Source: a virus. From it: DNA of 33,905 bases. Within the stretch, counting starts at the first letter, position 1, and each line of letters opens with the position of its first letter. The stretch covers positions 1 through 33,905 of IMG/VR virus record IMGVR_UViG_3300031963_000539, one strand, 5' to 3'. A program made the translations under genes and the position numbers. The notes beneath the pieces were generated by a model. The model had not been told where the DNA came from. It saw only the letters and a list, made by a program, of their open reading frames with translations, and searched no databases. Below, in pieces: positions 7,262 through 33,905 of the stretch.

Positions 7262-7621
7262 ATGGACATCAATTTATACCGTCAAAGATGCCTTGAGCTA
7301 CGTCAAAAGTTCGGTGAGGATAAGATCACAAAAGAAATGCTCAATGATGCATGGCAATACTGGAAGTCAGAAGATGACGAATTCTTTGAAGCCTTCATTA
7401 AAAAGATCATAGCCCTACCATTTGTCGTAAAGCTCGTTCCTGAGAGAGTTATAGAATATGAGGACCCACATAAGGAAATAGGCGCGAAGCCTAACCAAGA
7501 GCCTTTAAAGCCCAAACAAGCCTCAAATCTAGAGGAATCCATAAAAAGAGTCGGAGCCTCATCGCTGTTGGATCTAGTATTAGACACCAAAAAACGTGAC
7601 GCTTGGCTTAAGACTTATTAA
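7262..7621 (+). CDS. hypothetical 119-residue protein
   Basis: The protein has a helical N-terminal half with many charged residues, a central Pro/Lys linker (about residues 75-88) and a helical C-terminus. No family is recognised. The ATG is not preceded by a purine-rich ribosome site. The gene is the last of the rightward series that began with the tail genes, and its end converges with the leftward block, overlapping the cryptic minus-strand frame at 7608-7898 by 14 bases. Confidence 0.5.
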   Translation: MDINLYRQRCLELRQKFGEDKITKEMLNDAWQYWKSEDDEFFEAFIKKIIALPFVVKLVPERVIEYEDPHKEIGAKPNQEPLKPKQASNLEESIKRVGASSLLDLVLDTKKRDAWLKTY

Positions 7622-7898
7622 AAAAACATTTACAATCTTTAAACAATTTACAATAAGCTTTTTCAACGTGCCAGTGAGGGGCTGCTATCAAGCCCACTAG
7701 TGAGGCAATAACTGGTGCATGCTTCATTAGCCAAAAGATAGCGGGTTCTGCATTTGCTCCTGTGGGGATAAGAGTGTGGGAGTTGCCTGAACTTATCAGG
7801 ATAGCAAGCAAACAAATAGTCCAAGTTGCTAAAAGACCGATGACGATAAAGTGAGAGATCAGCCTATTTAAACTAGGTTCATTGCGAGGGTAGATCAG
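7608..7898 (-). CDS. cryptic leftward frame for a small two-helix membrane protein, start unresolved
   Basis: On the minus strand an open frame of 96 codons runs from a stop just above 7898 to TAA at 7608-7610. It encodes two clear membrane-type segments: FIVIGLLATWTICLLAILI and, after a polar Asn/Ser/Thr loop, APVIASLVGLIA. A Cys/Lys/Phe-rich tail follows. The only standard start is TTG at 7811, which would cut the first helix in half. CTG codons at 7862 and 7898 would give whole helices but lack ribosome sites. Protein-like composition with no good start suggests a rare initiation codon, a start in a different frame, or a decayed gene. Two-helix size fits a holin or a superinfection exclusion protein; this is inference. 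Confidence 0.35.
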   Translation of the reverse strand: MIYPRNEPSLNRLISHFIVIGLLATWTICLLAILISSGNSHTLIPTGANAEPAIFWLMKHAPVIASLVGLIAAPHWHVEKAYCKLFKDCKCFFNKS

Positions 7899-7970
7899 TT
7901 AAAGCTTTTAAGCTAACCACTGACCTAATACGGGATGCTTTGTCCAATGGGGATAAGCGAGGTGTGGGTC
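7893..7970. other. foldable non-coding stretch within the 368-base gap 7622-7989
   Basis: The gap between the rightward gene ending at 7621 and the leftward gene ending at 7990 has no rightward gene. Within it, TCAGT at 7895-7899 pairs with ACTGA at 7919-7923 around an inner AGCTT-TT-AAGCT hairpin at 7903-7914. Next to it, GACC at 7922-7925 can pair with a GGTC near 7967, enclosing GCTT...TCC-AATG-GGGA...AAGC. The part from 7921 to 7977 is visibly richer in G and C than its surroundings. This could be a small RNA, a leader for the leftward frame at 7608-7898, or a transcription end region. No tRNA consensus is seen. Confidence 0.35.
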
Positions 7971-7989
7971 GGGCCGTTCAAAACTCAAT

Positions 7990-8289
7990 CTAAGAAACTC
8001 CAAAGATTTCTTCAAGATTTTTAATCTCGTTAAATAGTACGGTTGTTAAGTAAGAACTTTGAGTTGCTTTATTAGGGCTTAATTTCTTGTAGTTATATGA
8101 TTCTTTAATTTGTTCAATAAACTCAGATAATAGAAGTGGGTCTTCATCGAATGCGTAAATTAATATATGAATCTTAAATAAGACAGATGGTTGAATTACT
8201 CCATTCATCTTCATTATTTCTAAGAACTCATTCTTTAATTTAAGATCAATAATTAACTCCTTTGATGTTGAGTCTTTTATTGGCTGCAA
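7990..8289 (-). CDS. leftward small helical protein, possible regulator
   Basis: This 99-residue protein from TTG at 8289 is helical and rich in Lys, Glu, Ile and Leu, with no clear HTH and no membrane segment. It is the only confident leftward gene. Its divergence from the recombination operon across a 117-base control region resembles a repressor-type position, but I cannot show DNA binding. The start is doubtful: TTG 8289 has no ribosome site, while AAGGAG at 8262-8257 sits ideally before an ATT codon at 8250-8248. Internal ATGs at 8214 and 8208 are other choices. Confidence 0.6.
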   Translation of the reverse strand: MQPIKDSTSKELIIDLKLKNEFLEIMKMNGVIQPSVLFKIHILIYAFDEDPLLLSEFIEQIKESYNYKKLSPNKATQSSYLTTVLFNEIKNLEEIFGVS

Positions 8290-13562: not shown

Positions 13563-14783
13563 ATGAAATTTAATTGCTCCTATAAAGAGATATTAGACGC
13601 ATCTAGTCTAAAGCCTAATCCAAAGAATCCAAATAAGCATTCAAAAGACCAAATCGAACGCCTTGCAAAGATCATAGATTATCAAGGCCAACGCTCCCCA
13701 ATCGTTGTTTCTAATCAATCTGGTTTCATTACCAAGGGGCATGGAAGGCTTCAAGCCATGAAGAAACTAGGATGGCGTAGGGTGGCCGTAGACTTTCAAG
13801 ATTATGAATCAGAGGCTCAAGAGTATGCAGATATTGTTGCAGATAATGCCATTTCTGAATGGTCAGAGCTTGATCTATCAATGATTAACACTGACTTCAC
13901 AGACTTCGGGCCCGACTTTGACATTGATCTTTTAGGCTTAAAAGACTTTGAAATTGACGTTGCCGATAAAGAATTAGGTGATGAGGAAGAAACTCCAGAG
14001 CCACCAAAAGAGTCAAAAGTTGTTAAGGGTGAGGTTTATATCCTTGGCGATCATCGGTTAATGTGTGGCGATTCTACGATGATTGATGACGTTGATAAGC
14101 TCATGGCAGGACAAAAGGCTGACATGGTTTTTACTGATCCTCCGTATGGAATTGATGTAGTCGGTGGCGGAAAATCTTTTGGAAAAGTCGGTGGCGGAAA
14201 ATCTTTTGGAAAAGTCGATGGCGGAAATATCATTGAATCAAATTTATACATGAAAATCAAAGGCGATGATACGACACAAACTGCTATTGATGCATATAAT
14301 TTGTGCGTGAGTTTGCAAATACCTGTTTTGTGTTTTTGGGGAGCAAATTATTATGCGTCAGCATTGCCAGACAGAAAAAAATGGATCTTTTGGGATAAAG
14401 AAACAACAGGAAACTTTTCAGATGGAGAGCTTGCTTGGACTAATCTTGAAGGTAGGGTTCAAAGATTCAAGCACGTATGGAATGGGCTTATAAAAGAATC
14501 AGAGAAACGTGACAAAAGAATTCATCCTACACAAAAACCAATTGCATTAGCTGAGTGGTGTTTTAAAGAACTTAGTCCTATGTCAAAAAGCGTATTAGAT
14601 TTATTTGGTGGATCAGGTTCAACTCTTATTGCCTGTGAAAAGACCAATAGAAAATGTTTTATGATGGAGTTTGAGCCTCATTACATTTCAGTAATTCTTG
14701 ACCGATGGGAAAAGTACACAGGCAAAAAAGCACACAGAGAGTCAGACAATAAGCTATGGCAAGACATCAAGGATGGTAAGTAA
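13563..14783 (+). CDS. ParB-domain / DNA methyltransferase fusion
   Basis: A 406-residue protein. Residues 1-135 are a ParB/Srx-type domain (L-K-P-N-P-K-N-P, T-K-G-H-G-R at 58-62, V-A-D-N-A-I-S-E). Residues about 155-400 are a beta-class amino-methyltransferase: T-D-P-P-Y at 191-195 (catalytic), H-P-T-Q-K-P at 321-326, and the SAM-binding L-D-L-F-G-G-S-G-S-T at 345-354. It should methylate adenine N6 or cytosine N4. Such fusions are common just before terminase genes in phages and may mark DNA against restriction or guide packaging. A 9-residue tandem repeat follows the DPPY motif. Its stop overlaps the terminase small subunit start. Confidence 0.88.
   Translation: MKFNCSYKEILDASSLKPNPKNPNKHSKDQIERLAKIIDYQGQRSPIVVSNQSGFITKGHGRLQAMKKLGWRRVAVDFQDYESEAQEYADIVADNAISEWSELDLSMINTDFTDFGPDFDIDLLGLKDFEIDVADKELGDEEETPEPPKESKVVKGEVYILGDHRLMCGDSTMIDDVDKLMAGQKADMVFTDPPYGIDVVGGGKSFGKVGGGKSFGKVDGGNIIESNLYMKIKGDDTTQTAIDAYNLCVSLQIPVLCFWGANYYASALPDRKKWIFWDKETTGNFSDGELAWTNLEGRVQRFKHVWNGLIKESEKRDKRIHPTQKPIALAEWCFKELSPMSKSVLDLFGGSGSTLIACEKTNRKCFMMEFEPHYISVILDRWEKYTGKKAHRESDNKLWQDIKDGK
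14160..14213 (+). repeat. perfect 27-bp tandem duplication in the methyltransferase gene
   Basis: Two exact 27-base units at 14160-14186 and 14187-14213 encode V-G-G-G-K-S-F-G-K twice, in frame. A third, shorter and diverged unit starts at 14214 (V-D-G-G-N). The array begins five codons after the catalytic DPPY. Exact identity points to a recent duplication, or to a repeat number that varies between genomes. Confidence 0.9.
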
Positions 14784-20805: not shown

Positions 20806-21110
20806 TGGCGTTGATTGGTGATGTAAGAGAAAGAGAGCATCGAAAATTTGTTGAATCTCCGACAAGACCAGATCAAACAGCAATTGAGGTTGTCGATTCT
20901 TTAAATTTAATTTCATCTGTCGGATCTCTTCGAGTAGATCAGGCATCATCAACAATAATTTATTTGGGTCAAGCTGCATACGGATCTCTTGAGTCTGAAG
21001 CCAAATGGCAAATTAAGAAAATAGATACAAGCTCAGGCGTTTCTATAACAAATGCTTCAAATGGATTTAACCAAATTTGGAATAACAGAGCGAGTTTAAC
21101 TTATGTCTGA
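20802..21110 (+). CDS. conserved phage structural protein, possibly adaptor
   Basis: A 102-residue protein. S-T-I-I-Y-L-G-Q-A-A-Y-G-S-L-E-S-E-A-K-W-Q-I-K-K and N-G-F-N-Q-I-W-N-N-R-A-S-L form a pattern I have seen in small phage proteins near fibre genes, of unknown role. The beta-rich fold would suit an attachment domain. It overlaps both neighbours, so it is part of the capsid-distal fibre cassette. ATG 20805 is an equally good start. Confidence 0.65.
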   Translation: MMALIGDVREREHRKFVESPTRPDQTAIEVVDSLNLISSVGSLRVDQASSTIIYLGQAAYGSLESEAKWQIKKIDTSSGVSITNASNGFNQIWNNRASLTYV

Positions 21111-22521
21111 TTTTAAAATTGTTAAACTATTAGATCCAATTTCTCTGACTTTGACTGGGCCAAATTTTCAGGGAGAATATGTTTCAGGTAATACATATCA
21201 GGTTGGAATGTCAGTTAGCTATAATGGATCATCTTATGTGGCCCTTCAGACTACGACTGGCAATGTTCCAACAAACACAACTTATTGGCAACTATTAGCA
21301 GCCAAAGGTGATACTGGCGCTGGGGCAGTGGCCTTTACTTGCCGTAACTCTACAGGCGTTCCAATTCAAGCCTTTCGTGTTGTCTACATTAGTGGATCAA
21401 CTGGAAATGAGCCAAACATTACACTGGCTCAAGGTAATAATGATCCAAATTCATCAAAGACTTTCGGGGTAACACCTCTAGTAATTAATAATAATTCTAA
21501 TGGAACTGTCGTACATAATGGTGAGATTGATAACCTAGACACATCAGCTTTTACGGCCGGAAATCTTTTGTGGTTATCCCCAACTACTCCAGGTTTAGTT
21601 ACAAGTACTCGTCCACCTGCTCCTGATCATGCTGTTTTTATCGGTTATGTTGTCAGAGCACATCCCACACAGGGGAAAATCATTGTTACGATTCAGAATG
21701 GTTTTGAGCTTCAGGAGCTTCACAATGTATTAATTAATGGCATAATTAATGGCCAGGTCATTCAATACGAATCTGCGACTCAGCTTTGGAAAAATCACAC
21801 ATTAACTAAGACTGACGTTGGCCTTGGAAATGTGCCCAATACTGATGCCACAAATCCTGCAAACATTGTTCAAACTGCATCCTACAGATTTGTAACTGAT
21901 ACAGAAAAGTCAGACTGGAATGGAAAGCAGGACGCACTAGGGTTTACCCCTGAGAATGTAACAAACAAATCGACTGACTTATCTTCACCAGATAACACGA
22001 AATACCCAACCACTTTGGCGGTATCTACTGCTATTTCAAATTCAACAACCCCTGACGCTACTGATACCGTTAAAGGTAAATTAAAACTAACAAACGATCT
22101 GGGTGGAACGGCAGACCTTCCTACAGTTCCAGGTCTTGCTGGGAAAGAGCCAACAATTACTGCAGGAACTACCTCTCAGTATTTTAGAGGCGACAAGACA
22201 TTCCAAACTCTTGATAAAAATGCCGTTGGATTAAGCAATGTTGATAATACTAGCGACCTTTCAAAAGACTTAAATAGGTTCGAAAAAATATCTAAAAACT
22301 TGCGATCATATCCTGCATCATTTGCTTACTCAGGAAGTTCTTTGTCTTCGATTACTTATCAAACAGGCGTTTCAACTTTTATCGTAAAAACATTTAACTA
22401 TACTGCTGGAGCATTAACCTCTATCGTTTTAAGTGGTAATTTGCCTTCAGAGCTTGGCGGGATCACAACTAAAACGATTAGTTACTCTGCTGGAAAAATA
22501 TCATCTTTATCTTACTCATAG
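21103..22521 (+). CDS. fibre-like protein with carbohydrate-binding N-terminal module
   Basis: A 472-residue protein. Residues about 22-70 (G-E-Y-V-S-G-N-T-Y-Q-V-G, Y-N-G-S-S-Y-V-A-L, N-T-T-Y-W-Q-L) match the CBM5/12-like module common in phage fibres, followed by K-G-D-T-G-A-G. The middle has several L-G-N-V-x-N-T/D-T-D fibre repeats. The C-terminus consists of beta-turn-rich S-Y-S-A-G-K-I-S repeats. It would be a trimeric fibre or spike binding host sugars. Unusually, it lies between coat and neck genes rather than near the tail tip. Confidence 0.7.
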   Translation: MSDFKIVKLLDPISLTLTGPNFQGEYVSGNTYQVGMSVSYNGSSYVALQTTTGNVPTNTTYWQLLAAKGDTGAGAVAFTCRNSTGVPIQAFRVVYISGSTGNEPNITLAQGNNDPNSSKTFGVTPLVINNNSNGTVVHNGEIDNLDTSAFTAGNLLWLSPTTPGLVTSTRPPAPDHAVFIGYVVRAHPTQGKIIVTIQNGFELQELHNVLINGIINGQVIQYESATQLWKNHTLTKTDVGLGNVPNTDATNPANIVQTASYRFVTDTEKSDWNGKQDALGFTPENVTNKSTDLSSPDNTKYPTTLAVSTAISNSTTPDATDTVKGKLKLTNDLGGTADLPTVPGLAGKEPTITAGTTSQYFRGDKTFQTLDKNAVGLSNVDNTSDLSKDLNRFEKISKNLRSYPASFAYSGSSLSSITYQTGVSTFIVKTFNYTAGALTSIVLSGNLPSELGGITTKTISYSAGKISSLSYS

Positions 22522-27113: not shown

Positions 27114-28043
27114 ATGGCTTGCAACGTATCTTCATACAATTTAGGAGTGAGAAATATCTTACTCGGAAAAACTACAAAACAAAGCTTCTGTATCAGTGCA
27201 AAGGCTGACGTTGCTGGCTCTTTAGCTGGTAAATACTTTGTCTTGCATGAGCCTGTTACTCAAGCAAAGCACGTTTTTTGGATGGACAATGGTGTAGCAT
27301 CTGCTCCAACTGTTCCAAATGCAACTTTGACAAATGTTGTTTATGTGAATAATGCTTCAGCATCCACAATTGCAACTGCAATCGCAGGATCTTTAAATGG
27401 AAAAACTTGGATTGGAACTGCGACAGCTTCAGGTGCTCATGTTGATGCCGATATGGATGTTGCTGGTTATGCTTACGAAGTGAGAGATGCTCTTGATCCT
27501 TTGAAGCAAACAAAGTTTAAATTTACTCTTGTTCAATACGGACGAGTTCAAGAAGATCTTGGCGCGACAAATGGCGACATCACAGCGACTATCGAAGAAC
27601 AAACAATCGAGATCACATCTCCTCAAACTGGTGATTATGTTCTTGGTGAAATTCGAAGAGGCGTTAGAGTTTCTATGTCTTTTGAATTGAAATCAACTGC
27701 GGCTGATGACATCAGAAAAGCTCTTAATTTTTACGGTGGAACTTTTGTAACTGATGATGCTGCGAGCGCAATTATCACTGGTTACGGTTCAGGCAATCTT
27801 TTCAAATCTACCGAAGACGTTGCAACTCAATTGATCCTTCGGGAGCCTGATTATGCTGAAAGTGATGATGCTTCTCAAGATTTCACACTACATAAGGCAA
27901 AGTTAAAGCTTGGCGAATTGACTTTTTCTGCTGAAAATGAATTTGTATTGCCAATCGAAGTAATTGGTTACTTGGATAAAACTAAGTTTTCTGGACTTAA
28001 TATGTTCACTTATGGTGACGCATCTAAAGTTCCAAGCGTTTAA
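27114..28043 (+). CDS. major tail tube protein
   Basis: A 309-residue protein after AGGGAGGAC. Position between the terminator-like gene and the chaperone pair is that of the tube protein. The core strands (F-K-F-T-L-V-Q-Y-G, T-I-E-I-T-S-P-Q, V-S-M-S-F-E-L-K, L-T-F-S-A-E-N-E-F-V-L-P-I-E-V) fit tail tube beta sandwiches. Residues about 32-125 (Ala/Thr/Val-rich with V-Y-V-N-N-A-S-A-S-T) look like an inserted extra domain. Codon use is richer in GCT and GAC-type codons than in fibre genes, in line with high expression. Confidence 0.78.
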   Translation: MACNVSSYNLGVRNILLGKTTKQSFCISAKADVAGSLAGKYFVLHEPVTQAKHVFWMDNGVASAPTVPNATLTNVVYVNNASASTIATAIAGSLNGKTWIGTATASGAHVDADMDVAGYAYEVRDALDPLKQTKFKFTLVQYGRVQEDLGATNGDITATIEEQTIEITSPQTGDYVLGEIRRGVRVSMSFELKSTAADDIRKALNFYGGTFVTDDAASAIITGYGSGNLFKSTEDVATQLILREPDYAESDDASQDFTLHKAKLKLGELTFSAENEFVLPIEVIGYLDKTKFSGLNMFTYGDASKVPSV

Positions 28044-28073
28044 TTAAATTAAAATCTGACTAGGAGTGGGATT

Positions 28074-28325
28074 TTGGAATTTGTAGCAAAGAAAAAGAAG
28101 TTGAAAATCACAATCGAAGGGGAGAGCTGGGAGATTGGCTCCCCATCGATAGGCCAACAAGAAGAGCTGAACGAGAAGATTAAAAGTGCAGCTCCTGAGA
28201 ATGTTTTAAATATCTATTTAGATTTTTTCTCAGCTCTTGGTCTACCTAGTAAGGCTCTGCGCGATCTAGATGCAGATGAATTTTTTGAACTTACGAAGTT
28301 TGTGTTTTCACCTAAAAAAAAATAG
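28074..28325 (+). CDS. tail assembly chaperone, upstream frame (gpG-like)
   Basis: An 83-residue protein from TTG 28074, with AGGAGTGGG just before it. It is helical in its second half, acidic in the middle and Lys-rich at both ends. Between the tube and tape measure genes this is the first member of the G/GT chaperone pair that coats the tape measure during tail assembly. It ends at TAG 28323-28325 just after a run of nine A, where some ribosomes should move to the -1 frame. Confidence 0.75.
   Translation: MEFVAKKKKLKITIEGESWEIGSPSIGQQEELNEKIKSAAPENVLNIYLDFFSALGLPSKALRDLDADEFFELTKFVFSPKKK
28314..28322 (+). promoter_or_regulatory. A9 slippery site for -1 frameshifting
   Basis: Nine A residues encode K-K-K in the zero frame, right before TAG. 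In the -1 frame a stop (TAA at 28313-28315) lies directly ahead of the run, and the frame is then open to 28621 with protein-like sequence. The shift can therefore take place only on these nine bases. The zero-frame stop in the next codon would help pausing. I see no clear strong hairpin after it. Confidence 0.8.
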
Positions 28326-28621
28326 ATAATAATTGGTTAAGGATTGCTAAGGTAGCACGTTTCTATGGGTGGCCTCCCGATGTGATCCTTGACCTTGATG
28401 TAAATGTGTTCGAGTTATTCTGTCAGGCCATCCCAATCATTGAAGCTCAAGAGATGTTGAGCGATTTCAAAGTGCAGGACTGGTCTAATATGAAAGAGAC
28501 TGCACGATCTAAACTTCACAGTCACTTATCAAAGACAGCATTTAACTCAATATCGACAGGTAAAAAAGAAGCCAAGAAAATCAGTAATGAGGACTTGGCT
28601 AGAATCTTATCTAAGAGGTGA
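28322..28621 (+). CDS. tail assembly chaperone, -1 frame extension (gpT-like part)
   Basis: After a -1 slip on the A9 run, reading goes on as I-D-N-N-W-L-R-I-A-K-V-A-R-F-Y-G-W-P-P-D-V and 99 residues in all to TGA at 28619-28621. This makes a fusion of about 182 residues with the upstream product. R-F-Y-G-W-P-P-D before a GTG at 28382 is clearly coding, so a separate gene starting at that GTG would miss its own N-terminal part. The tail is Lys/Ser-rich and helical. Fusion chaperones of this kind recruit tube subunits to the tape measure. Confidence 0.8.
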   Translation: MDNNWLRIAKVARFYGWPPDVILDLDVNVFELFCQAIPIIEAQEMLSDFKVQDWSNMKETARSKLHSHLSKTAFNSISTGKKEAKKISNEDLARILSKR

Positions 28622-28625
28622 TTGA

Positions 28626-30419
28626 ATGGCTGAAACAGACGGCAAAATTTTAGTTGAAATTGTGCTTGATGATGGATCCGTTCAAAAGGGATTTGTTAAG
28701 ATTCGTGATGAAGCAAAAAAGACTGGCACTAGCATTGGTGATTCGTTATCAAGTGGCCTTTCTTCAGGCTTTACAAGCCTTGTGGCAAGAGCTGGTGCTG
28801 TTGGGACTGCCATAGGTGCGGCTCTATTTTCAAAGGCAAGCATTGAGGCTGCAGCTCAACAAGAGGCTGCTGTTCAAAGACTTAATCAAGCTCTGGCAAG
28901 TGCAGGACGATTTTCTCAAGAAGCATCAAAACAGTTCCAAGATTTTGCAAATGAAATACAACGCACGACAGTAATTGAGGATGATGCGGTTCTTTCGCTT
29001 GTGGCATTGTCTAGCAATTTTGCTAAAACAAATGAGGAAGCAAAGAAACTAACCGAGGCTGCAATTCAATTAAGTGCTGCAACTGGTAAGGATTTATCAT
29101 CATCCGTTGATCTTTTAGGAAAGACATTAAGTGGAAATCTTGGCCTAATTGGGCGTTCTGTTCCAGCATTGCAGGGATTAACTGCAGAACAATTAAAAGC
29201 TGGTGCTGCATTAGATACTATTATTGCTAGATTTGGTGGAGCCGCTCAGTCTCAAATAAATACTTTCTCTGGTGCTGTTGCTCAATTAAAAAACTCATTT
29301 GGAGATCTTCAAGAAGAGGTTGGATCTTTTATCACTCAAGATAAGACTTTCGTTGCATTAATTAAAGGGATCGCAGATGGCTTTGCTCAAGCCTCAAAAG
29401 GACTTTCAGACGTAAGAGCAAGTGCGGGTGATGCAAGATCAGTCTTTGGTGAGCTTTTAATTTTACTCGTTAAATTTGCCGAGGGAGTTAATAAGTTTTT
29501 GATTGCTCCACTTGAGCTTGTGTTTAATTTTTTAAAAACTGGTGCTTTGGCAGTTTTAACCACATGGAATGGACTTTTTGCCGCTATCTTTGCAGGACTT
29601 AACAAGCTTGCTTCATTTCTTCCAGATATAAGTGCCTTTACTGGTTTAAAAGAGGCCCTTACATCTGAGTCTGAAGATCTAACCGCAAAGGTTTCTGCTA
29701 ATTTTGATGCTCTTTCTAATGCTGCTGATAATGCTTTAAATGTTAACTTTGCTGGATCAACTGCTTTGTTCTTAGAGGATCTTCGAACAAAAATGGAAGA
29801 CGCCAAAGCAATCACTCAAGATTTCAAAAATAATTCTACAAATAACTTTAAACAAGCCGCTCAAGGAATTAAAATCAGCATTGATCAAATCAAGAGCGTT
29901 GTGGCGAGTGGTCTTTCCTCAACAGCTCAAGAAATAGGAAAGGCATTACAATCTGGTCAAAATCTATTTGATGCTTTCGGAAAAGGAATTGTTGGAATCG
30001 TTGGTGATATTTTAATAACTGTCGGTAACGCGTTGATCTTACAAGGTTTGGCAATCGAAAAGTTTATTGCTTCAATTAATTCTTTAATCCCTGGATCTGG
30101 TGCCTTGGCTGCTGCGGCTGGATTTGGGCTTGTGATATTTGGATCTGCTCTAAAGGCTTCTGTTGGAGCTGGTGGTGGCGCATCCGCTCCAGCTGGTGGG
30201 GCTGGTGCTGTTCCTGGTGTAACTACTCCCATTGCTGAAACTCCGGCAACAGAATTGACTCCAACCTCTGAAACACTTAGGGAAGCACAGACTCAAGTCG
30301 TGGTTAACGTACAGGGAGATATACTAGATTCGGACGAGACAGGAAGTCGCATAATTTCTCTTATCAATGAGGTCTATGATAAAAAGGGAGTACAAATTAG
30401 ACGGGGAGTGACTGCATAA
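28626..30419 (+). CDS. tape measure protein
   Basis: A 597-residue protein with long Ala/Gln-rich helices in the first 300 residues (A-A-A-Q-Q-E-A-A-V-Q-R-L, a pattern with S-G-N-L-G-L-I-G-R-S-V-P-A-L-Q-G-L as in many tape measures). Hydrophobic segments lie near 53-72, about 283-330, 445-480 and 490-515. The length suits a fairly short siphovirus tail. It fixes tail length and helps DNA pass through the inner membrane. No lytic domain is seen. It starts 4 bases after the chaperone stop with GAGGTG upstream. Confidence 0.88.
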   Translation: MAETDGKILVEIVLDDGSVQKGFVKIRDEAKKTGTSIGDSLSSGLSSGFTSLVARAGAVGTAIGAALFSKASIEAAAQQEAAVQRLNQALASAGRFSQEASKQFQDFANEIQRTTVIEDDAVLSLVALSSNFAKTNEEAKKLTEAAIQLSAATGKDLSSSVDLLGKTLSGNLGLIGRSVPALQGLTAEQLKAGAALDTIIARFGGAAQSQINTFSGAVAQLKNSFGDLQEEVGSFITQDKTFVALIKGIADGFAQASKGLSDVRASAGDARSVFGELLILLVKFAEGVNKFLIAPLELVFNFLKTGALAVLTTWNGLFAAIFAGLNKLASFLPDISAFTGLKEALTSESEDLTAKVSANFDALSNAADNALNVNFAGSTALFLEDLRTKMEDAKAITQDFKNNSTNNFKQAAQGIKISIDQIKSVVASGLSSTAQEIGKALQSGQNLFDAFGKGIVGIVGDILITVGNALILQGLAIEKFIASINSLIPGSGALAAAAGFGLVIFGSALKASVGAGGGASAPAGGAGAVPGVTTPIAETPATELTPTSETLREAQTQVVVNVQGDILDSDETGSRIISLINEVYDKKGVQIRRGVTA

Positions 30420-31201: not shown

Positions 31202-33905
31202 ATGAGCGTATTTAATGGACAACCTGTAGATGCTGACACAACCAATGCAGCATTTATGTCTCGAACAAATGACACCGATACGGTTGGAAAGCTTGGATTA
31301 GACAATGCAGGATCTGCTTCGATAGATGATGCTCAAAAATATATCAATAAAATTGCTGATGCTGATGGCACATTATCAGAGACAGACACTACAAATAAGA
31401 CTTACTCATCAACAAATTATATTGCCAATGGTGATTCTAGAAAAGTAGCAATCGGAAAATTAGATACTCAAGTAAAAACAAACTCAAATGATATTGATGC
31501 AATTGAGATTGTAAATACAAGCCAACAAGTTGAAATCAATGACCATGAAAATAGACTTGATAATTTAGAAACTAATACGATGACAATTGGTGGAAATAAA
31601 ACATTTTCTGCTAATGTTACTGTTCAAGGTGATTTTGAGGTTCAAGGCACAACCACTTACATTAATACAACAAATCTGAATGTAAAAGATGCCAACGTTA
31701 TGTTAAATCAGTCAGGGACTGATATTACTGCAAATGGTGCAGGATTAACAGTTGATAGACCATCTGGAAATGGATCTTTAATTTATGATTCAGCTTTGGC
31801 CTCAAAGTGGAAGGCTGGTCAGTTATCATCAGAATCTGAAATAATAACAGCCTCTACGACTCAAACAATGACAGGAGTTAAATCATTTTCGTCAGGATTA
31901 AATTCTGACTCAATAAATGAATTCACTCTAAATAATGGCGTTAGTATTGATGGAGTTTTAATCAAAGATGGCCTTGTTGATGGCCGTGACGTATCTGTTG
32001 ATGGATCAAGCTTAACATCACACATTGCAAATACTTCAAATCCTCACGCAACTACTGCCGCTCAGGTTGGTGCTGATCCTTCAGGAACTGCGGCAAGTGC
32101 TGTTTCTGCTCACGAGTTGGCATCTGATCCTCATCCACAGTATTTGACAAGCACCGAAGGAGATAATGCTTATTTAAAACGTGGAGCTGGTGATTATAAT
32201 TCATTTACAAGTAAAGGCACTCCCGTAAATGCTGACGTAGTTTTGATAGAAGATTCTGCTGATTCATTTAATAAAAAGAAAATTACACTAACAGATTTGT
32301 TGGGAGGAACAGCATCTCCTTTGACAACAAAGGGTGATCTTTACACTTATTCTACGGTTAATGCTAGACTCCCCGTTGGAACTAATGGTCAAGTTTTGAG
32401 TGCTGATTCTTCTCAGACAACTGGACTTAAGTGGACAACTCCTACAAATGGAGGAGTTAATTTTATAACAAATTCAATTGCTGAAATTGATACTACTGGA
32501 TGGGCTACCTACGCCGATGCTGCGGGTGCCGCTCCTGTTGATGGAACTGGCGGCTCTCCTAGCGTAACATGGACGCAATCAACGTCTAGTCCTCTTGCTG
32601 GATCTGGTTCATTTTTATTTACTAAAGATGCGGCAAATAGACAGGGCCAAGGTGTGAGCTTCGATTTTACTCTTGATCCCGCTTATCGTGCTCGAGTAAT
32701 GAACATTAAATTTGATTATATTGTAGGATCTGGAACATTTGCGGCTGGAACTAGCTCAACTGATTCAGACTTAACGGTATGGCTTTATGATGTTACTAAC
32801 TCTACCTTAATTCAGCCATCTGCTTTCAGACTGTTGTCTAACAGCTCAACGATTGCAGATACGTTTCAATCTACTTTCCAGACTTCTGCAACTGGCGCAA
32901 GTTATCGTTTGATTGTTCATTGCTCTACCACTAGCGCATCAGCTTACACTGTTAAATTCGACAACGTGCAAGTGACTCCTACTGAGTATGCGTTTGGAAC
33001 GCCTGTTACGGATTGGGTTAGTTATACTCCGACTTTAACAACAAACCTAGGTGCAAATCCAGTAACTTTGAATACAGGCGCGGGTTATTTTGCGCCAAAT
33101 GGAAGATGGCGAAGAGTTGGAGACAGCATTGAGGTTTATGCTCATTTTAGAAATGGAACTGGTGGTGTGGCAACGGGAACGGCTGGAAATTTAGCAATAT
33201 CAATTCCATCCGGCGTTTCTATTGATACAAACAAAATAGCGTCTGACGGAAGTATAGGATCTTCAAATGGTTGGGCAATGTCTAACTTAGGAGGAAATTA
33301 TAGCGATGTTCAAAACATATACTTATCGTCAAATTTAATGCAAGTGCAGCAAGGCGGAACTGGTTCTTACTATACTTTATCTAGCATTACGGCTGGATTT
33401 GCAGTTCATTATCATGGTTTTTTTCCAGTGACTGGCTGGTCTTCTTCCGTCCAGACTAGCGATCAGACAAGCACTAGGGTTGTTTCATTCAAAGCTCAAA
33501 ATGCAACAGCAACTCTTTCAACATCAGCATCAAAAGTTACTTATTCAACTGTTGTCTTTGATGACTTAAATGCTTATTCATCTGGCACTTATACTGTAAA
33601 AGTCGCAGGAAAATATAAAGTCCATGCAAGTCTTTTAGTTGCAAGAACTGCAACTGTGGCAAGTAATGTTGTTCAAATTTGGGTTAGATATAATGGATCA
33701 AATGGTCAAGCCGTTTTATTAAGAGATCAAAGCACTGAGGCTCAATCAAGAACGATTGCAATCACTGACATTTTAGATTGTAAGGCTGGAGATACAATTG
33801 AAATTCAGGCTGCCGCAGAGGGAACTTCACCAACTGTTCCATCGGATGGAAATAGAAATTTCATTTTAATCGAGCGCATCTCCGGTCCGAACCAAATCGC
33901 GGCAA
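31202..33905 (+). CDS. large tail fibre protein, 3' end beyond window
   Basis: From ATG 31202 (AGGGGATT upstream) the frame stays open for 901 codons to the window edge. Residues about 85-130 form a coiled-coil stem, followed by V-T-V-Q-G-D-F-E-V-Q-G-T-T-T-Y and N-V-K-D-A-N-V as in many shaft domains. S-N-P-H-A-T-T-A-A-Q-V-G-A and S-D-P-H-P-Q-Y-L are histidine-containing fibre repeats. The last 130 residues are a C1q-like beta tip (S-G-T-Y-T-V-K-V-A-G-K-Y, A-G-D-T-I-E-I, I-E-R-I-S-G-P). It likely reads host receptors. Probably only a short tail is missing. Confidence 0.85.
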   Translation, partial: MSVFNGQPVDADTTNAAFMSRTNDTDTVGKLGLDNAGSASIDDAQKYINKIADADGTLSETDTTNKTYSSTNYIANGDSRKVAIGKLDTQVKTNSNDIDAIEIVNTSQQVEINDHENRLDNLETNTMTIGGNKTFSANVTVQGDFEVQGTTTYINTTNLNVKDANVMLNQSGTDITANGAGLTVDRPSGNGSLIYDSALASKWKAGQLSSESEIITASTTQTMTGVKSFSSGLNSDSINEFTLNNGVSIDGVLIKDGLVDGRDVSVDGSSLTSHIANTSNPHATTAAQVGADPSGTAASAVSAHELASDPHPQYLTSTEGDNAYLKRGAGDYNSFTSKGTPVNADVVLIEDSADSFNKKKITLTDLLGGTASPLTTKGDLYTYSTVNARLPVGTNGQVLSADSSQTTGLKWTTPTNGGVNFITNSIAEIDTTGWATYADAAGAAPVDGTGGSPSVTWTQSTSSPLAGSGSFLFTKDAANRQGQGVSFDFTLDPAYRARVMNIKFDYIVGSGTFAAGTSSTDSDLTVWLYDVTNSTLIQPSAFRLLSNSSTIADTFQSTFQTSATGASYRLIVHCSTTSASAYTVKFDNVQVTPTEYAFGTPVTDWVSYTPTLTTNLGANPVTLNTGAGYFAPNGRWRRVGDSIEVYAHFRNGTGGVATGTAGNLAISIPSGVSIDTNKIASDGSIGSSNGWAMSNLGGNYSDVQNIYLSSNLMQVQQGGTGSYYTLSSITAGFAVHYHGFFPVTGWSSSVQTSDQTSTRVVSFKAQNATATLSTSASKVTYSTVVFDDLNAYSSGTYTVKVAGKYKVHASLLVARTATVASNVVQIWVRYNGSNGQAVLLRDQSTEAQSRTIAITDILDCKAGDTIEIQAAAEGTSPTVPSDGNRNFILIERISGPNQIAA

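Follow-up and report, generated by a model that had tools for sequence, protein, structure and literature searches.

The segment at positions 28,074 to 28,621 of the window, by which we mean the whole analysed stretch of 33,905 nucleotides (IMG/VR record IMGVR_UViG_3300031963_000539), is supported as a G/GT-type pair of tail assembly chaperone genes. Its second part, T, would be reached when reading moves back one base, into the -1 frame, on a run of nine A (A9). On the sequence evidence it is very probable that the chaperone is recoded in some form. That the ribosome is the main agent of the shift is a good deal less certain and we regard it as probable, and the whole statement, a G/GT chaperone pair with -1 recoding on A9 by a slipping ribosome, is given with the same moderate confidence. 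G/GT recoding itself is familiar in kind, and the chaperone sequence family is new.

According to the proposed mechanism, ordinary translation from TTG 28,074 would give G (83 aa), and at A9 a fraction of the readings would slip back by one base into the -1 frame and give GT (182 aa), the T part at 28,322-28,618 probably having no start of its own. Most likely tRNA-Lys would slip by -1 on A_AAA_AAA within the ribosome, and neither a conserved stimulatory hairpin nor a conserved Shine-Dalgarno (SD)-like element would be involved. By analogy with lambda, G may coat the tape measure protein and T may recruit the tube subunits. We infer the production of GT, its ratio, these binding partners and the ribosome as the slipping machine from the evidence which is presented below.

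Arrangement of the locus and the slip run

The gene pair sits on the plus strand between a tail-tube-like gene and a tape measure gene, and the same order is found in the relatives. The tube-like gene (27,114-28,043) matches Ig-domain PHROGs (phrog_2175, E 6e-07) and has homologs at the same place in the relatives, with 55-58% identity in the two closest. The downstream neighbour (28,626-30,419) encodes a tape measure protein of 597 aa (phrog_1272, E 5e-04; PF06791, E 3e-04, under the cut-off) and also matches annotated Pseudomonas phage tape measure proteins. Upstream of the pair the window encodes recognisable TerL, capsid, scaffold and neck-like proteins, and a tail-fibre-like protein lies between the capsid and tube genes at 21,103-22,521, with a weak match to the carbohydrate-binding family CBM_5_12 (E 9.5e-05, under the Pfam cut-off). 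The window also encodes a fusion protein with a ParB-like N-terminal part and a DNA methyltransferase (13,563-14,783), and no tRNA gene was found in it.

The gene of G (28,074-28,325) was delimited from the frames, the homologs and a fold model. It begins with TTG at 28,074, which is preceded at a distance of 7 nt by the ribosome-binding site AGGAG (28,062-28,066), and its 83 codons end as TCA CCT AAA AAA AAA TAG, with the stop at 28,323-28,325. The A9 run occupies 28,314-28,322. The preliminary description of this DNA had correctly read the zero frame as closing with K-K-K-stop on nine A. It had also described a -1-frame stop just before the run followed by coding sequence up to 28,621, which agrees with our reading of TAA at 28,313-28,315 and a -1 frame open over 28,316-28,618, reading (K)(K)IDNNWLRIAKVARFYGWPPDV..., with its stop at 28,619-28,621. 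Since TAA 28,313-28,315 closes the -1 frame upstream and sets the 5′ limit of a possible shift, the shift is confined to the 7 nt (28,316-28,322) over which both frames are open together. The only in-phase heptamer within these 7 nt is A_AAA_AAA itself (28,316-28,322), and it is of the X_XXY_YYZ form. The run was also followed by run counts and in the relatives. If the shift takes place at 28,322, GT has 182 aa, and the extension T (28,322-28,621; placed by frames, relatives and model) consists of 99 residues and the stop. The first ATG, GTG or TTG of the -1 frame is the GTG at 28,382-28,384, exactly 20 codons past the shift, and a gene call starting there would lose 20 residues, as was stated earlier. 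This GTG has no ribosome-binding site before it and conserved coding sequence upstream, and we consider it a decoy.

The A9 at 28,314-28,322 is the sole A-run of at least eight on both strands of the 33.9-kb window, whereas 2.8 runs of A9 or longer per strand would be expected under a first-order Markov model. Both strands together contain 16 A-runs of seven and none of eight, which suggests that long A-runs are avoided in the window apart from the slip site. The architecture as a whole was tested as a run of seven or more A, with the zero frame open for at least 60 codons before it and ending soon after it, and the -1 frame open for at least 90 codons after it; in the window this combination was observed once, against 0.01 expected per strand, and we do not attribute it to chance.

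Runs of nine A are generally prone to sequencing error, and an indel in the homopolymer, or a pseudogene, might have split one true reading frame, but a second record (IMGVR_UViG_3300042691_018055) is identical over the region, and the -1 arrangement recurs in 15 divergent relatives as well as in sister phages without a homopolymer at the site, so an assembly error is unlikely and this explanation, hardly credible, was rejected. The same second record joins the window end at 33,905 to its start at position 1 through 691 bases which the window lacks (7,488-8,178 of locus L005), and the join implies a genome of about 34.6 kb which is circular or circularly permuted, though the record is classed as linear.

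Relatives, conservation of T and identity of the proteins

A search with TerL gave 26 viral records, which were then searched with T, the tube and the tape measure protein, and their junctions were read. These records yielded two close homologs (L048 and L049) and five sister phages (L050-L054). With the loci added by tube-based scans and a T-based scan, the homologous family has 16 members, the window included. T lies in the -1 frame with respect to G in all 15 homologous loci, which are divergent and come from viral metagenomes. The T proteins of the relatives are down to 26% identical, yet the order of G then T between tube and tape measure is kept. Two tube alignments were scanned against bacterial and archaeal genomes and found no relative there, so we assign no host. 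A search of named phages gave no usable relative of T, the best matches having E values of 0.06 to 0.9.

The preliminary description had, beforehand, made its case depend on the -1 frame between 28,322 and 28,382 being conserved, and conservation of this stretch was found in 15 relatives. The opening segment of T follows the pattern A-K-x-C-x-F-Y-G (the FYGW motif in the -1 frame) and lies upstream of the position of GTG 28,382, and residues F14 and Y15 of T are invariant in an alignment of 14 members. The mean pairwise identity of T is 37% before GTG 28,382 vs 33% after it, and nucleotide change falls mostly at third codon positions (0.66 vs 0.48 and 0.44 per site). Judged from these sequences, the -1 segment before GTG 28,382 is under coding constraint. 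The same data bear on the proposal that T is an independent gene, coupled to G and starting either at GTG 28,382, which is in frame and gives an ORF of 79 aa, or at a non-standard start codon. The GTG has no ribosome-binding site, and conservation in the segment before it is no lower than in the rest. In the relatives no start codon precedes the conserved part: among the six other members listed, the first ATG, GTG or TTG comes only at T residue 16 to 45, behind the FYG motif. With conserved coding sequence before the GTG and start-less relatives, an independent start for T was rejected as very improbable.

No significant match for the G/T family, from the window or the relatives, was found among the Pfam, PHROGs and PDB sequence models. 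Weak matches of single members to known chaperones were obtained (best E 0.0036 to 0.05), and the names among these profile matches include tail assembly chaperone (PHROGs) and Phage_TAC_7 (Pfam). The model of G (pLDDT 87) is predicted as a beta hairpin with helices; its top two matches in BFVD are tail assembly chaperones (E 0.018), and among solved structures the HK97 chaperone 2ob9 ranks third (Z 4.5, which is weak alone). These fold matches, weak by themselves, agree with the position and the frame architecture. The model of T (pLDDT 81) is all helical, and a fold search with it gave no informative match. The earlier assignment to a siphovirus-type G/GT chaperone is supported by the tube and tape measure neighbours, by the heptamers of the sister phages and by the chaperone matches of the G model.

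The five sister phages are more distant TerL relatives with a different tube-like protein of roughly 500 aa, and in all five a -1 pair precedes the tape measure gene. Their chaperone pair is apparently unrelated to that of the window family, and the tube and chaperone module appears to have been swapped among phages whose TerL and tape measure proteins are related. Canonical in-phase sites are present in four of the five (CCCAAAG; AAAAAAG, with six A; GGGAAAG; GGGAAAC). In the remaining phage (L052, 1,923-1,971) only the imperfect in-phase heptamer CGGAAAC is seen in an otherwise normal -1 chaperone pair.

Ribosome or RNA polymerase as the agent of the shift

An in-phase A_AAA_AAN site is present in 16/16 members of the family. 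Comparison of the A-run with relatives, which had been proposed as a check on the original reading, gave a run of exactly nine A in 13 of the 16 homologs and A8-G in the other three (L061, L076, L078). The first A stands at codon position 1 in six loci, at position 2 in two and at position 3 in eight, and so the nine-A length recurs in every codon phase. Under selection for the in-phase A_AAA_AAN alone, about 8-13% of sites should carry nine or more A, an estimate which ignores relatedness, though most branches of the tree are long. Among the first 13 relatives, whose loci were counted on either strand, ten A9 and five A8 runs occur; all of the former and three of the latter are slip sites, the runs having been matched to the sites by comparison with the slip-site listing, and no run longer than A9 occurs there.

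A nine-A length kept in all three phases exceeds what the heptamer requires, and this counts against a purely ribosomal reading. It would suit transcriptional slippage, in which RNA polymerase stutters on A9, some mRNA carries ten A, and normal translation of this mRNA gives GT; the proteins would be the same, with their ratio set by the polymerase, as in dnaX of Thermus thermophilus and certain insertion sequences. For such slippage it is the total run length and not the codon phase that should be kept, as is seen here (nine A, or eight in the three shorter runs), and both the low frequency of long runs under the heptamer-only null and the finding that every A9 run counted among the first 13 relatives is a slip site point the same way. 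Transcriptional slippage is efficient in bacteria from about nine A (PMC1088944, PMC5009743), conservation of 9A among homologs is the criterion of Baranov et al. for purposeful slippage (PMC1088944), and the runs in insertion sequences (IS) of D. radiodurans are likewise of nine or eight A (PMC1088944).

Several observations speak against it. In the sister phages, whose terminase and tape measure are related, the shift sites are ribosomal heptamers and not homopolymers, and at four of them, canonical in-phase heptamers, polymerase slippage on a long run cannot apply. Placed on the tree, A8-G requires three changes, two of them forced by the starred branches, and hence arose at least twice. 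The shortened run is always A8-G and so always gives A_AAA_AAG, which is the heptamer of E. coli dnaX (PMC3711429). In a GFP study the E. coli RNA polymerase slipped little on poly(A), and undetectably below eight A (PMC6260861), and no tail chaperone case of such slippage was found in the literature searched. We consider transcriptional slippage the less likely account but a serious rival, and the claim that the G/GT ratio is wholly or largely set by polymerase slippage on the length-conserved A9 in this lineage is a tentative one, to which we give well under an even chance. If it is true, tail chaperone stoichiometry would be fixed at transcription here, while the sister phages would obtain a similar pair by the ribosome on GGGAAAN or CCCAAAG.

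The ribosome is favoured on account of the sister sites, which are ribosomal only, the A_AAA_AAG left in every shortened run, and the precedent of tailed phages. No downstream RNA structure or SD-like stimulator is conserved in the family (mean z -0.3 and -0.9), which fits the account of tailed phages as shifting at a low level without stimulators (PMC5009743). Reporter shifts in E. coli were about 40% for A9, 10% for A7 and 6-7% for two tail chaperone sites (PMC3711429); the value for A9 would imply a high GT:G ratio, which was counted against the ribosomal explanation. Sliding of ribosomes on A stretches that encode lysine is also reported (PMC4363877). Ribosome and RNA polymerase may contribute jointly. 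The preliminary description had proposed a -1 shift on A9, and this recoding is supported; the ribosomal level was fixed too early, as nine A permits slipping by the ribosome or by the polymerase.

Significance and comparison with known systems

For a group of uncultivated phages these results correct the gene calls, and they offer a tail gene on which annotation can be anchored. The nine-A run, being independent of codon phase, is also suited for testing recoding of a tail chaperone at the RNA polymerase step.

The slip site of lambda G/GT is GGGAAAG, whereas that of the window is A9, and the shift level expected for the window is possibly higher. The two systems have no detectable sequence relation, and the window G is smaller (83 aa). 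They are alike in lying between the tube and tape measure genes (Xu, Hendrix and Duda; reviewed in PMC5009743), and in having a short zero-frame product, a longer -1 product, a slip near the end of G and no conserved stimulator. The HK97 chaperone 2ob9 resembles the predicted model of G in its beta hairpin followed by helices, with 75 of the 83 model residues aligned at Z 4.5, but the identity is 13% and this middling Z does not by itself prove homology. Thermus thermophilus dnaX and the A9 IS elements share with the window family a nine-A run, eight in some copies, with its length conserved among homologs, in the window family at nine in 13 of 16. They differ in not being tail genes and in that mRNA slippage has been demonstrated for dnaX, whereas the window family also has A8-G members which fit the ribosomal heptamer.
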